From positions 3,658,001-3,722,000 of the forward strand of contig NZ_CP038437.2 of assembly GCF_008329985.2 (NCBI RefSeq): 64,000 nucleotides of DNA. The letters run 5' to 3'. Under the pieces are notes generated by a model. The model was not told the DNA's origin, did not search any database, and saw only the letters and a list, made by a program, of their open reading frames with translations. Shown here one piece after another: positions 56,492 to 62,465 of the stretch. Numbering within the stretch: position 1 is the first letter of the stretch; each line of letters begins with the position of its first letter. The stretch comes from Halomonas binhaiensis. Its GTDB lineage: Bacteria; Pseudomonadota; Gammaproteobacteria; Pseudomonadales; Halomonadaceae. A program made the position numbers and the translations under genes.

Positions 56492-57949
56492 ATGACCGAT
56501 GGCTTTCACCGCCCTCGCCGCCGGGGCGTATTACTGTTGGCGGGCCTCGGCCTGGCCTTGTGGCCAGTCGATCCCACGCCTCCCCCCGGTGCGGCCTTGG
56601 AGGGCGTGAAGTCCCGTGATTTCCTGACTGTTCATACTCGCAATACGCCCTTGACCTATTACGAAGGACGTCTGGGGCCGACAGGTTTCGAGTATGAGCT
56701 GGTACGCCGTTTTGCTGACTATCTTGGCGTTAGCCTGACCCTGGAAGATGACCACAATGTCTCCAGTGTATTGGCTTCCGTACGCGAACAAGGTGACCTG
56801 GGGGCAGCCGCCCTGCCGCTGGATCCCGCCACTCCAGGCGTCATCTATACCCAGCCGGTGATGCTGATGCAGCCCATTGTGGTCTACCGGCGTGGCCTGC
56901 ATCCCCCGCGCACTCCCGCCGATCTGGTCGGTCTGCAGATTGGCACCCTCAAGGGCACCGGCATCAGCCGAGTCATGCATGAACTGCAGGACAGTGTCCC
57001 CGAACTCAGTTGGAAAGAAGCAACCGATCTCGAGATTGCTTCTCTGCTGAAGCGCGTGGAAGACGGCAGCCTCGATGCCGCCGTGGTATTCGAACATCAG
57101 TTCCGCCTCAACCGCCTGTTCTTTCCTGAAGTCGAAGATGGCTTCAAGGTTGGCGAAAAAGTGGCCATGGCCTGGGCCCTGCCCGACAACCAGGGTATGG
57201 GGCTGATTGATGCCGCCAATGAGTTTCTCGTCACACTGCGCGCCAGCGGCAAGCTGGATATGTTGATCGATCGCTACTTTGGTCATGACGATTACCTGGA
57301 ATACGTCGGCGCCAGGACCTTCATCCAGCATGTCCATGGCCGCTTGCCACGCTACGAGGAACTGTTCCGTGAAGCGGCACGACGGGAGAATTTCGACTGG
57401 AAGCTGCTGGCAGCAGTGGCGTATCAGGAATCGCACTGGAAACCCGATGCTACCTCTCCGACCGGTGTCCGCGGCATGATGATGCTGACCAACGCCACCG
57501 CCGAAGAAATGAATATCTCCAATCGCCTCGATCCGGCGGAAAGTATTGAGGGTGGCGCTCGCTATCTGCGCAGCATCGAGCAACGCCTGCCGGAGGAAAT
57601 CACCGGAAATGACCGCCTGTACATGACCCTGGCCGCCTACAACGTGGGCCTGGGGCACCTCTACGACGCGCGCAAGATCGTCTCCATGCTAGGCCGGGAT
57701 CCCGACCGCTGGGATGACATCCGCGACGCCTTGCCGCTGCTGCAGGAAAGCAAGTGGTACGAAAGAACGCGCCATGGTTATGCCCGTGGCAGCGAACCGG
57801 TCATCTATGTGCGCAATATCCAGCGTTATCTGGAAATACTCGATTACGTGGACCACAACCAGCAGCAGTTCCATCAGCTCAATGCGCGCCTGCCCGATGA
57901 CAACGACAATGCACTGTTTCAGATCGTGCCGCCGAAGTCCAAGGGCTGA
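56492..57949 (+). CDS. mltF: Membrane-bound lytic murein transglycosylase F
   Basis: The 485-residue enzyme cuts peptidoglycan at the periplasmic face. After a basic start and hydrophobic anchor ([16 protein letters not shown] near residues 9-24), an amino-acid-binding-protein-like domain (about 38-270) is followed by an SLT domain. The catalytic glutamate is in [15 protein letters not shown] near residue 313, and [10 protein letters not shown] and [15 protein letters not shown] follow. The ATG at 56492 has no clear ribosome site. Divergent from purL, convergent with tadA. Confidence 0.94.
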
Positions 57950-58024
57950 ATGTCAGGACGGATAGAGAAGCCTGTTCAGGCCTGGAGTACACTGGCTGCC
58001 AACGCGCGACACGGCCTTCTTCTC

Positions 58025-58060
58025 TTTATTATTGGCTTTATTATTGGCTTTGTTATTCGC
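58025..58060. repeat. Three tandem 12-bp units at the end of tadA
   Basis: Units at 58025-58036 and 58037-58048 are identical (tttattattggc) and 58049-58060 differs by two bases. They adjoin the TAA stop of tadA. On the minus strand, the 12-base period keeps TAA codons in the same frame in each unit. Confidence 0.9.
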
Positions 58061-58064
58061 CCTC

Positions 58065-59457
<1,393 letters not shown>

Positions 59458-59496
59458 GATCAAGCGTGCCGATACCAAGCCATCAGGAGAACATGC

Positions 59497-60015
59497 GTGA
59501 ACCTCCACATTCGCCCAGAATCTGCCGATGATCGCCAAGCCATTTCACGCCTGACCCAGCGTGCCTTTGAGCATGCTCCGCATGCCAGTCATACTGAGCA
59601 CTTGATCGTTGATGCGCTACTGCTTTCTGTTTCCCTGGTCGCCACCAGGGATGACGAGGACGAGATAGTGGGACACGTCGCTCTTTCCCCGATCATGCTG
59701 TCCTCAGCACCTCCTGGATCAACGGCAGCCACTGGCTGGTATGGGCTGGGGCCGATTTCCGTGTCTCCTGAATGCCAGGGCCAAGGCATCGGTTCTCAAC
59801 TCATGCAAGCGGCACTGCAGCATCTGGAAAAGACGGAAGCCAGCGGCTGCGTATTGCTAGGCGATCCCGCCTTCTATTCTCGCTTCGGTTTTCGCCCGCG
59901 CGATGAGCTGGTGCTTCCCGGCGTGCCCCCGGAATATTTCCAGGCCATTTGCCTGCGGGGAGACTGGCCCCGGGGCATCGTCAGCTTTCACCCAGCCTTC
60001 GATATCAGCCTCTAA
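59497..60015 (+). CDS. GNAT-family N-acetyltransferase (YhbS-like)
   Basis: The product is 172 residues. LHIRPESADDRQAISRLTQRAF opens the fold, VGHVALSPIML follows, and the acetyl-CoA loop is in SPECQGQGIGSQLMQAALQHLE near residues 89-110. YSRFGFRPRDEL near 127-138 and the C-terminal region match the YhbS-type group. The start is a GTG with AGGAG eight bases upstream. The substrate is unknown. It lies 39 bases after tesB. Confidence 0.85.
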   Translation: MNLHIRPESADDRQAISRLTQRAFEHAPHASHTEHLIVDALLLSVSLVATRDDEDEIVGHVALSPIMLSSAPPGSTAATGWYGLGPISVSPECQGQGIGSQLMQAALQHLEKTEASGCVLLGDPAFYSRFGFRPRDELVLPGVPPEYFQAICLRGDWPRGIVSFHPAFDISL

Positions 60016-60099
60016 CCCTGGCAGACACCGGACAGGACCTTGAACTTGCGCCGTATCGAGGCTTGTATCAATTCCAAGCAGAAGGCTGATGTATCAGGC

Positions 60100-60129
60100 T
60101 TGGCGAAGGTTGGGACGAGTCACTATGCT
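60100..60129 (+). promoter_or_regulatory. Candidate promoter of tRNA-Thr
   Basis: TTGGCG (60100-60105) and TATGCT (60124-60129) are 18 bases apart and about 33 bases upstream of the tRNA. This is a plausible but not consensus sigma-70 promoter. Confidence 0.4.
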
Positions 60130-60161
60130 GCGAAGCAGGTAGGCAACGCAGACATAGCATT

Positions 60162-60237
60162 GCCGGCATAGCTCAGTTGGTAGAGCAGCGCATTCGTAAT
60201 GCGAAAGTCGGAGGTTCGACTCCTCTTGTCGGCACCA
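60162..60237 (+). tRNA. tRNA-Thr (CGU)
   Basis: The 76-base gene forms a cloverleaf with acceptor GCCGGCA and TGTCGGC, anticodon loop TTCGTAA (anticodon CGT) and encoded CCA. It stands alone and marks the left side of an AT-rich islet. Confidence 0.95.
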
Positions 60238-60263
60238 GAATTTATTTCCCAGACATTAAACTG

Positions 60264-60298
60264 ATACAGCACCTTACCGAAAAAGTAAGGTGCTGTAT
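60264..60298. terminator. Terminator hairpin after tRNA-Thr
   Basis: A perfect 14-bp stem (60264-60277 with 60285-60298) with a 7-base A-rich loop follows the tRNA by 26 bases. It may also end the minus-strand lectin gene transcript. It is followed by two exact-but-one copies of a 19-bp unit (60296-60314 and 60315-60333). Confidence 0.75.
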
Positions 60299-60333
60299 GT
60301 GTTGTCCAACTTAGTATGTGTTGTCCAACTTAA
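60296..60333. repeat. 19-bp tandem duplication
   Basis: Two adjacent copies of tatgtgttgtccaacttag, differing only at the last base, lie between the hairpin and the 3' end of the lectin gene. Confidence 0.85.
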
Positions 60334-60356
60334 GACTTATTACCGATATTTCTTTG

Positions 60357-61082
60357 TTATGCTCGTTTCACATCCATGTGGATGGAAAACTCCCCTCTAT
60401 TATCGGCATGTGAACCAGGCTCATCATTCACAATAAATGAGACTTCTCCATCCTCCGGAACAACAAATTCAGACAGCTCTTTTCCTACAGGATAGTAAGT
60501 ACCAGCTATTTTCATCACTACTGATGCGAGCTGCGCAGGAGGGAATATGGCATTTTTGCTCGATCCACGCATTGACCCATCGGGTCCTAATTCCTTGCCT
60601 TCTTGGGATATATGAATCCCTCCACTGGCCCTGATACTAATAACGTCACCCTTCTTCACGGCCATATTTGTTTCAACGCCATCTACACTATTTCCTGGCA
60701 GGACCCCATCCCAGGTTTCGGCATTAGACTGCGAGGCTTCAGCATAGACTTCGACATCAAACTCCCCAGAATTATCTGAGAAAGTTCCAGGTCTATCATT
60801 GAATAAAAATGAAATTTCACCAGCCTCAGGAACTTCCCAACGATAGAGATAATTTCCAACCGAGTATTTCGTGCCATTTATTACTGCGACCAGGGTAGCA
60901 ATGGATTCAGGCAGGTCACTTCTACCTGCCGCTCCCTGAGGAGCTGCCCATGCATGCTCACTGCTTGCATACTTGACCCATCCGTTGGCCAGAATAGTGA
61001 TGACGTCTCCCTTGCTCACCTTGACTCCGCTTGAAATTCCATTTTCTGCTGCGGCGCTAACATTTCCTGACCATAATTTCAT
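60357..61082 (-). CDS. Two-domain LecA (PA-IL)-like lectin
   Basis: The product is 241 residues with two tandem domains resembling P. aeruginosa LecA, the calcium-dependent galactose lectin, which has one domain of 121 residues. Domain 1 (about 1-116) has GDVITI near 25-30, Tyr38 where LecA has its calcium-site Tyr, and NDRPGTFSDNSGEF near 95-108 (calcium loop: Asp96, Thr100, Asp103, Asn104). Domain 2 (about 122-241) has GDVISI near 145-150, His157 at the Tyr place, and NDEPGSHADNRGEF near 219-232. The His and Gln used by LecA to hold galactose are not obvious, so specificity may differ. There is no signal peptide, as in LecA. GGAGG precedes the ATG. The gene is AT-richer than its neighbours (about 40% GC in the line 60421-60480), suggesting transfer. 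Confidence 0.82.
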   Translation of the reverse strand: MKLWSGNVSAAAENGISSGVKVSKGDVITILANGWVKYASSEHAWAAPQGAAGRSDLPESIATLVAVINGTKYSVGNYLYRWEVPEAGEISFLFNDRPGTFSDNSGEFDVEVYAEASQSNAETWDGVLPGNSVDGVETNMAVKKGDVISIRASGGIHISQEGKELGPDGSMRGSSKNAIFPPAQLASVVMKIAGTYYPVGKELSEFVVPEDGEVSFIVNDEPGSHADNRGEFSIHMDVKRA

Positions 61083-61172
61083 GACAATTCCTCCAGATCC
61101 ATCTGTCGATAAAGAAAACCCTCACACCTTCGGCATCTTGCCAAATAGGGTTTCCAATATTAAATTCCAATA

Positions 61173-61206
61173 ATCTCTTGAGATAAATGTTATGTATAAC
61201 ATTTAT
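61173..61206. promoter_or_regulatory. Operator-like inverted repeats upstream of the lectin gene
   Basis: A perfect 11-bp inverted repeat with a 2-base centre (61183-61193 with 61196-61206) touches a second, 5-bp inverted repeat (61173-61177 with 61180-61184). They lie about 100 bases before the lectin start, where an activator or repressor might bind. A weak TTGGAA-N17-TATTTG promoter lies between them and the gene on the minus strand. Confidence 0.5.
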
Positions 61207-61444
61207 ACACTCACATATGTTGCAGGACAAAATCTAGCAGTAAACGTGAAATCTTATGTTATTTGTTTACACTTTTTTGTGCATGGATGTTGGTTAATCA
61301 AGGCGTGGTGTGATCATGATTTCATAAACCATGATAATACCGCCATATTTAGACAAACTGTTTAATATTATTTCTTGTCTCAGGCATTCATTCCCTGGCA
61401 TCATCAATTACCACACACCTCCTGAACTTCAGTGTCGCACCCGC

Positions 61445-61480
61445 TGCGGGGCTCAGGAGGGTTGCGGGGCTCAGGAGGGT
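61445..61480. repeat. 18-bp perfect tandem duplication
   Basis: Two exact copies of tgcggggctcaggagggt are adjacent, between the AT-rich gap and the 3' end of the AhpD-like gene. Confidence 0.9.
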
Positions 61481-61507
61481 TGATGCCAGGCATTGGCCAC
61501 GGCATCA
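61481..61507 (-). terminator. Hairpin over the stop codon of the AhpD-like gene
   Basis: A 7-bp inverted repeat (61481-61487 with 61501-61507) overlaps the TGA stop of the AhpD-like gene. It has a 13-base loop and no U-tract, so it is a weak terminator candidate. Confidence 0.4.
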
Positions 61508-61849
61508 GGTCATCTCGACAGGTGAGTGCGTGTCAGGAGCCTGGGTTTCAGATATTCGCGTCACTGCTTCGGCCCAAGCAAGTGCTGCACGTTCGCGGGC
61601 ACTGTAGAGTTCGCTTACCTGCCAGCCAGCCAAGCTGTCCAGCTTGTGTGTCTCTTCACCTAGTTCGCGCAGTGTCGCTGCATGGTTCTGCAGGCAGAAC
61701 GCGCAGCCATTGATCTGGGAAACGCGAAGGTAGATCAGTTCAACCAACCTGCGACCAAGACTGCTCTGATCCAGGCTGCGATATGCACTCAGCAGGTTTT
61801 CATAGGCTACCGGCGAGAGTTCTCCATAGGGAAGACGAGTATTACTCAT
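61505..61849 (-). CDS. Carboxymuconolactone decarboxylase / AhpD-like protein, shortened C-terminus
   Basis: The product is 114 residues. The redox site CAFCLQNH (C-x2-C-x3-H) lies near residues 49-56 after LVELIYLRVSQINGCAF. The segment ERAALAWAEAVTRISETQAPD near 86-106 also matches the family. Typical members continue for about 40 more residues with a helix rich in VDLTLAI and INxWNR, absent here, so the gene seems to have lost its 3' end. In another frame past the stop, a short AVANAWHQ stretch could be a remnant. AGGAG precedes the ATG, which overlaps the azoR 3' end by eight bases. It could still be active or be degrading. Confidence 0.75.
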   Translation of the reverse strand: MSNTRLPYGELSPVAYENLLSAYRSLDQSSLGRRLVELIYLRVSQINGCAFCLQNHAATLRELGEETHKLDSLAGWQVSELYSARERAALAWAEAVTRISETQAPDTHSPVEMT

Positions 61850-62465
61850 GAGATTCTCCTGTAACGGACATCAAGGATGTTGCGTATTGATTCATCTGCT
61901 GCCGCGCCTGACTCGAAGCCGCATGACGAGCGTCATCGCCCTGGGCCAGGCCTTGCATGGCGATAAACTCCACTGAATGAATACCGATGGTCGATAGAAC
62001 GTGGCGTAAATAGGGCGTTAGAAAGTCAGGCTGCATCGACATTTCCCCCTGGAAGATTCCACCGGCACTGACAAAGACGAACGTCGGGCGATCCCGTAGC
62101 AGGCCCTGCTTGCCCTGTGCTGTGGCGCGAAAACTACGATGAATGCGTACTACATGATCGATCCACAGCTTCAAAGCCGCTGGCACAGTGAAGTTGTGCA
62201 TCGGCGTGGCGATGAGCAAGTAATCGCAGTGCTCGAGTTCGGCTATCAGGTTTTCGGAAATATTGAAGTGCGGGCTGGTATCTGGAGCCGATGTAACGAT
62301 GGCATCGGCATAGTTGGCATCGATGGGCGGCAATGGCTCGCTAGCCAGGTCTCGTATCACCAATTGGGCTTGTGGATCCAGGCGAGCGGCATACTCCATG
62401 GCCAACCTGCTGCCCTGTGATGCTGTCCCATGAGGGCTGCATGCCAATAACAAAATGCTGTTCAC
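61842..62465 (-). CDS. azoR: FMN-dependent NADH:quinone/azo reductase
   Basis: The 207-residue flavodoxin-fold enzyme reduces quinones and azo dyes with NADH. It opens with SILLLACSPHGTASQGSRLA, has ATPMHNFTVPAALKLWIDHVVR near residues 85-106 (the FMN-binding region) and FVSAGGIF near 130-137. All are AzoR features. The start is GTG with GAGAGG upstream. It precedes the shortened AhpD-like gene and follows a GNAT gene, probably one operon. Confidence 0.9.
   Translation of the reverse strand: MNSILLLACSPHGTASQGSRLAMEYAARLDPQAQLVIRDLASEPLPPIDANYADAIVTSAPDTSPHFNISENLIAELEHCDYLLIATPMHNFTVPAALKLWIDHVVRIHRSFRATAQGKQGLLRDRPTFVFVSAGGIFQGEMSMQPDFLTPYLRHVLSTIGIHSVEFIAMQGLAQGDDARHAASSQARQQMNQYATSLMSVTGESHE

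Follow-up and report, generated by a model that had tools for sequence, protein, structure and literature searches.

A gene at 60357-61082 on the minus strand of a 64,000-nucleotide stretch of Halomonas binhaiensis (contig NZ_CP038437.2, positions 3,658,001 to 3,722,000; hereafter the window) is a real, intact and acquired gene for a tandem PA-IL lectin related to LecA. Alignments and a structure prediction place two PA-IL domains in its product, each with a complete set of calcium side chains, and a near relative lacks, at the corresponding site, the segment that carries it. Taking the reading as a whole, we consider it rather probable that the gene came by horizontal transfer and that its product is a soluble lectin, dependent on calcium, whose two kinds of sugar site are unequal.

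Two PA-IL domains in a single chain

The PA-IL (LecA) family profile PF07828, with a Pfam cut-off of 22.5 bits, matches the whole protein at 151.3 bits in two stretches, which score 100.2 bits (domain 1) and 56.7 bits (domain 2), so that each domain belongs to the family by profile in its own right. Comparison with solved PA-IL lectins by sequence agrees (E values of 4e-33 for domain 1 and 2e-16 for domain 2), and a two-sequence alignment gives 37% identity between the domains. Together they fill nearly the whole chain, as in a tandem PA-IL protein and unlike LecA proper, which has one domain per chain. The predicted structure fits the solved PA-IL lectins and has their jelly-roll β-sandwich fold; a short linker, visible in both sequence and model, joins the two sandwich domains. 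No N-terminal signal peptide was seen by eye. These data support the identity of a two-domain LecA-like lectin and bear out much of a preliminary description of the sequence, which had named this frame and strand, two PA-IL domains, an AT-rich islet and the lack of a secretion signal. Its placement of a His in the second sugar site stood less well, as did its implication that the tandem is new, while its interpretation of a LecA-like tandem with possibly unequal sites is sustained as plausible.

Calcium loops and sugar-site residues

Residues were read at LecA positions in an alignment of 58 PA-IL domains from which the fragments P0051-P0053 were excluded; the roles of LecA residues, His50 apart but including the list of calcium ligands and the sugar contact of Gln53, are those that we take LecA to have. 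Column 100 is Asp and column 108 is Asn in all 58 domains, and column 107 holds Asp in 52 domains and Asn in the other six. At LecA positions 36, 100, 104, 107 and 108, domain 1 has Tyr38, Asp96, Thr100, Asp103 and Asn104, and domain 2 has Ile158, Asp220, Ser224, Asp227 and Asn228; the calcium side chains (Asp100, Asn/Asp107, Asn108) are thus found in both. The Tyr and the Asp/Thr/Asp/Asn loop of domain 1, and Ser for LecA Thr104 in domain 2, had been recognized correctly in the first description, which made no mention that Asp220, Asp227 and Asn228 are all kept.

The same description put a His at the Tyr place of domain 2, which is probably one column off: His157 aligns with LecA Ser35 and Ile158 with LecA Tyr36. 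The ungapped match to LecA and two multiple alignments give this register, whereas the pairwise alignment of domains 1 and 2 sets His157 at Tyr36 through a one-residue gap. Because the model strands 27-37 and 147-157 are offset by exactly 120 residues, Ile158 pairs with Tyr38 and the ungapped register is favored; on balance we reject His157 at this position. Ile is also found there in the homologue P0002. The column is Tyr or Phe in 52 of the 58 rows, the six others being the two Halomonas second domains, both domains of the Chelativorans tandem, the N domain of Enterobacter cloacae EclA (EclA-N) and P0054. Domain 2 also has Gly in place of Trp33, and its contact loop differs.

The galactose-contacting His and Gln, earlier described as not evident, were found in neither domain, although the aligned columns are gap-rich. 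His50 is named as a LecA sugar contact in PMC8350385, which also describes binding of α-galactosides by PllA, the Photorhabdus luminescens lectin A. Only two rows, LecA and domain 2 of P0012, have His at column 50, and 56 of the 58 lack it, PllA included, so its loss is a weak argument for altered specificity. (P0012 domain 2, residues 128-253, has His-Pro at LecA positions 50-51.) Gln occupies the similarly gap-rich column 53 in 16 rows, PllA again included, and its absence from both Halomonas domains weighs a little for the earlier description and against a fully PllA-like domain 1. Based on these alignments, the site of domain 1 is most likely one for galactosides, like that of PllA. Domain 2 most likely carries calcium but has altered or weak sugar binding, and the usual mode of galactose binding is probably lost in it. 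That the two sites differ, as first suggested, is therefore plausible mainly through the loss of the aromatic residue at position 36, which EclA-N shares, and hardly through His50.

We expect a multivalent lectin that is soluble and needs calcium, each chain having one site like that of PllA and one that has changed. Domain 1 would hold calcium together with an α-galactoside, much in the manner of PllA, and domain 2 would hold calcium in the same loop and bind another glycan, or galactose weakly, given Ile for Tyr36, Gly for Trp33 and the different contact loop. Chains would probably pair through PA-IL interfaces, so that each particle has four sites of two kinds and could link two sorts of glycan on cell surfaces or in a matrix. 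Like LecA, the protein would be exported with no signal peptide. A more specific version is tentative: a bispecific lectin on a mobile gene, in which domain 1 would take an α-galactoside and domain 2, with Ile at position 36 and an intact calcium loop, a different glycan, so that the particle bridges two surfaces, such tandems having been assembled more than once from PA-IL domains.

The N domain of EclA bears directly on what domain 2 might do. In its crystal structure, according to PMC11875179, calcium is bound by the side chains of Asp114, Asp121 and Asn122 and by main-chain oxygens of Asn54 and Gln118; by our reading of chain 6ygq and its tag offset, residues 54 and 118 correspond to LecA 36 and 104, so a change at these positions appears to be tolerated for calcium. 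Such tolerance, with the calcium side chains intact in both Halomonas domains, would suit a lectin in which both domains bind the same α-galactosides and fusion does no more than fix a dimer that LecA and PllA form through assembly. We regard this as unlikely, since the domains are 37% identical, domain 2 lacks both the aromatic residue at 36 and Trp33 and has a different contact loop, and EclA, which in its N domain likewise lacks the aromatic residue at 36, was not retained by galactose resin (PMC11875179). It is quite unlikely that domain 2 is mainly structural, holding calcium and driving assembly with no glycan ligand. EclA-N offers a precedent, being calcium-loaded and showing no specific ligand when the separate domains were tried on a glycan array, although its authors allow that it may account for the binding of some charged glycans (PMC11875179). 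Assembly alone needs no calcium loop, however, and between the two Halomonas copies of the gene (the second is described below) the ratio of nonsynonymous to synonymous substitution rates (dN/dS) is low, 0.08-0.10 in domain 1 and 0.18-0.25 in domain 2, whose site residues are unchanged.

The lectin segment and its empty sites

The gene lies in an AT-rich islet, as the preliminary description had it: GC content falls to 0.470 and 0.484 in the two one-kb steps of 60001-62000, compared with 0.537-0.625 in the other 62 steps, and the lectin's GC content at third codon positions is 0.39, compared with 0.548-0.715 in seven neighbors. The second carrier, G101, is a near relative (TesB 98% and CoxA 99% identical; these names, like "endonuclease" below, are our presumptive assignments by eye), and its lectin protein is that of the Halomonas metagenome-assembled genome (MAG) bin15. 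On either side of the lectin segment, at 57937-60240 and 61532-66453 in window coordinates, the two genomes are 91-92% identical, and G101 has other sequence in place of the segment (Table 1). Its own lectin sits elsewhere, between an endonuclease-like gene and tRNA-Pro; this locus in the window's genome, G000, is 92-93% identical to that of G101, the gap being filled by 1.76 kb of different sequence. The two genomes thus have reciprocal empty sites, each being without lectin at the other's site. The lectin blocks share 60263-61313 at 79.7% identity, with 83% in the coding part, which is below the identity of the flanks. At the right junction the CMD-family protein departs from its G101 counterpart after residue 106, as if arrival of the segment had cut the end of that gene.

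About 230 bp upstream of the lectin are conserved between the two copies. Given this conservation and the low dN/dS, the gene probably has a promoter of its own from which it is expressed, and is in use. A passenger gene, recently arrived or decaying and with no role in the host, would agree with its presence in 2 of 275 family genomes, its AT-rich composition and its different sites in two near relatives, but is very improbable given that the frame is open in either copy, that dN/dS is low for each domain and that the upstream region is conserved.

The hairpin just downstream of the gene has, by a pattern allowing up to three mismatches, one similar counterpart in the genome (60269-60293 in the window and G000:C1:2366429-2366453). 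The counterpart stands at the endonuclease/tRNA-Pro locus, where G101 keeps its lectin and G000 has none. The hairpin was considered as the lectin's own terminator and not adopted: a terminator scan did not list it, and its counterpart stands without a lectin. It may instead be a flank of an earlier site, and the simplest reading of these sequences is that the window's lectin would have come, hairpin included, from a donor with a lectin at the endonuclease site. The endonuclease/tRNA-Pro gap (L073, G000:C1:2359000-2369000) is a variable slot, with a DUF2569 protein and small open reading frames (ORFs) in G000 and the lectin in G101.

Several points weigh against the proposed reading of an acquired lectin with unequal sites. 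Export is argued by likeness to LecA, which leaves its cell without a signal peptide. The predicted template modeling score (pTM) of the chain is 0.51, leaving the mutual placement of the domains, and with it the four-site particle, uncertain; of the "covalent dimer" first proposed, the two domains per chain stand. Residues 171-180 of domain 2, near the sugar-contact region of LecA, are the least certain part of the model (predicted local distance difference test score, pLDDT, 62), and domain 1 has Leu where PllA and LecA align Gln53. Because EclA-N is a well-formed PA-IL domain without a known ligand, even binding by domain 1 is a prediction. As to acquisition, the shortening of the CMD gene rests on a single comparison; the final 14-29 bases of the tRNA have no second copy in the 31.9 kb from window position 60100 on, and no integrase was seen by eye among the ORFs of the 31.9 kb downstream, where no integrase profile was run. 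On these last grounds, which cover one side of the tRNA, we rejected a classical tRNA-integrated island.

Carriage by a phage or plasmid was likewise set aside: eight pattern matches in viral contigs gave no confirmed relative, phage records had no match to the lectin, and four plasmid records had one-domain matches, 40-42% identical to domain 1. The tRNA was located in 19 loci from other genomes, nine of which have tesB adjoining and varied ORFs on the other side; all nine are in the window's genus. A search with PF07472 for a LecB-type partner gave no match, but as its controls gave none either, this carries no weight. The distance from the lectin stop to tRNA-Thr(CGT) is 119 bp. Perfect tandem duplications lie near the segment ends, at 60295-60332 (2 x 19 nt) and 61445-61480 (2 x 18 nt), and a perfect 11-nt inverted repeat upstream of the lectin (61183-61206), only partly kept in the other copy, is a possible regulator site.

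Table 1. Positions of the lectin gene, its parts and adjoining features in the window
Feature	Position	Strand	Basis
Tandem PA-IL (LecA-like) lectin gene, 241 aa	60357..61082	-	ORF call, PF07828 profile
Domain 1, residues 4-116, PllA-like PA-IL domain	60735..61073	-	profile, sequence, structure
Domain 2, residues 124-237, diverged PA-IL domain	60372..60713	-	profile, sequence, structure
Domain 1 calcium loop, Asp96-Asn104 (LecA 100-108)	60771..60797	-	alignments; calcium role as in LecA, and for EclA-N from PMC11875179
Domain 2 calcium loop, Asp220-Asn228, Asp/Ser/Asp/Asn	60399..60425	-	alignments
Ile158 codon, most likely the LecA Tyr36 place; His157 precedes	60609..60611	-	three alignments; other register in one
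GGAGG, like a ribosome-binding site, 7 nt from ATG	61090..61094	-	by eye; GGAG in homologue
Non-coding stretch before the gene, also kept in the second Halomonas copy; probable promoter region	61083..61313	-	alignment
Hairpin just downstream of the lectin gene	60259..60303		z -7.3
tRNA-Thr (CGT), adjoins the lectin segment	60162..60237	+	tRNA call, comparison with G101
Lectin-bearing segment; 178 bp of other sequence in G101	60241..61531		alignment to G101
CMD-family gene, 114 aa (143 aa in G101), 3' end inside the differing segment	61505..61849	-	comparison with G101

Relatives and known lectins

A single-sequence search kept 2 of 822 candidates, the lectin itself and P0002 (Halomonas sp., 84% identical over its full length), and a profile search kept 53 proteins from 6599. 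Beyond the Halomonas pair, the latter include three full-length tandems, from Enterobacter mori (P0004, 35% identical), Enterobacter cloacae (P0012, 33%) and Chelativorans salis (P0046), and 47 short relatives of 83-130 aa with 38-52% identity, 42 of them named as Xenorhabdus or Photorhabdus, one as Enterobacter, one as Jejubacter, and three without an organism name. P0054 is an EF-hand repeat protein with a C-terminal PA-IL domain (residues 284-384) at 23.7 bits, just above the cut-off. In a scan of named genomes, relatives occurred at 12 loci: the tandem of Halomonas MAG bin15, ten single-domain frames in Photorhabdus or Xenorhabdus and one Planctomycetota protein. Whole-genome counts, each including G000, gave PA-IL in 2 of 275 genomes of the family (G000 and G101), 4 of 390 in the order sample and 2 of 369 in the class sample. 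One of the three other carriers in the order sample, G500, was checked by Pfam: it encodes a 615-aa protein that resembles a serine/threonine kinase and has a PA-IL domain at its C-terminus (L006, 16-1863; Pkinase 128.7 bits, PA-IL 29.6 bits). In G339 and G442, of the same genus, frames of 605 and 636 aa match PA-IL, and L008 looks alike by eye. In the class sample, G786 has two PA-IL matches about 21 kb apart (L009 and L010; frames of 334 and 319 aa).

In a tree of 58 domains, five first and five second tandem domains are intermixed, and domain 1 of P0012 groups with domain 2 of P0004 and the single-domain Jejubacter lectin (support 99/96). By this tree, PA-IL tandems probably arose more than once. 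A single origin of all tandems was discarded, neither first nor second domains forming a group, with the caution that long branches make the deeper joins unsafe. Placing the two Halomonas domains as sisters, as in a mutual duplication, was not rejected by the approximately unbiased test (p-AU 0.215).

With this gene, the small group of tandem PA-IL lectins gains one from a Halomonas-like bacterium. The reciprocal empty sites point to a lectin gene that can move by itself, together with its upstream region, from one place in the chromosome to another among near relatives. The protein is otherwise of an ordinary, acquired kind; its testable point is the ligand of domain 2. It lets one ask what a PA-IL domain without an aromatic residue at position 36 binds, a question that comes from EclA, and the PllA-like domain beside it offers an internal control.

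Among solved lectins, domain 1 is 51% identical to PllA (PDB 5odu/5ofz), which has Gln at column 53 where the Halomonas domain has Leu and which, according to PMC8350385, is a tetramer with one domain per chain. Pseudomonas aeruginosa LecA (PA-IL; PDB 1l7l, 2vxj) is about 30% identical to the Halomonas lectin and has the fold and calcium side chains of both its domains; it is a single-domain tetramer (PMC8350385) with the His50 and Gln53 that both lack, and domain 2 differs further by Ile at 36 and its contact loop. An engineered dimeric LecA and the lectins of Xenorhabdus and Photorhabdus are treated in PMC9864468 and PMC3220699, respectively. EclA (N domain PDB 6ygq) is, like the Halomonas lectin, a two-domain protein with an N-terminal LecA domain, and it is the N domain that lacks the aromatic residue at 36, as Halomonas domain 2 does. 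The EclA C domain is of another fold and binds fucose, whereas the Halomonas lectin has PA-IL in both positions; with its two unlike domains, EclA has been proposed as a cross-linker of two partners (PMC11875179). The C. salis tandem P0046 (240 aa, two PA-IL domains, 35% identity over 97%) has domains that group with each other (support 100/89), suggesting a separate duplication. The same architecture is in print for an Enterobacter ludwigii lectin with two LecA domains, the first 38-42% identical to EclA-N and the second similar to the first (PMC11875179); we liken it by its published description, the Enterobacter tandems aligned here being P0004 and P0012. With this lectin and the three further tandem proteins, the novelty implied in the preliminary description falls away, and the two-LecA-domain architecture of the Halomonas lectin is of a rare and already noticed kind.
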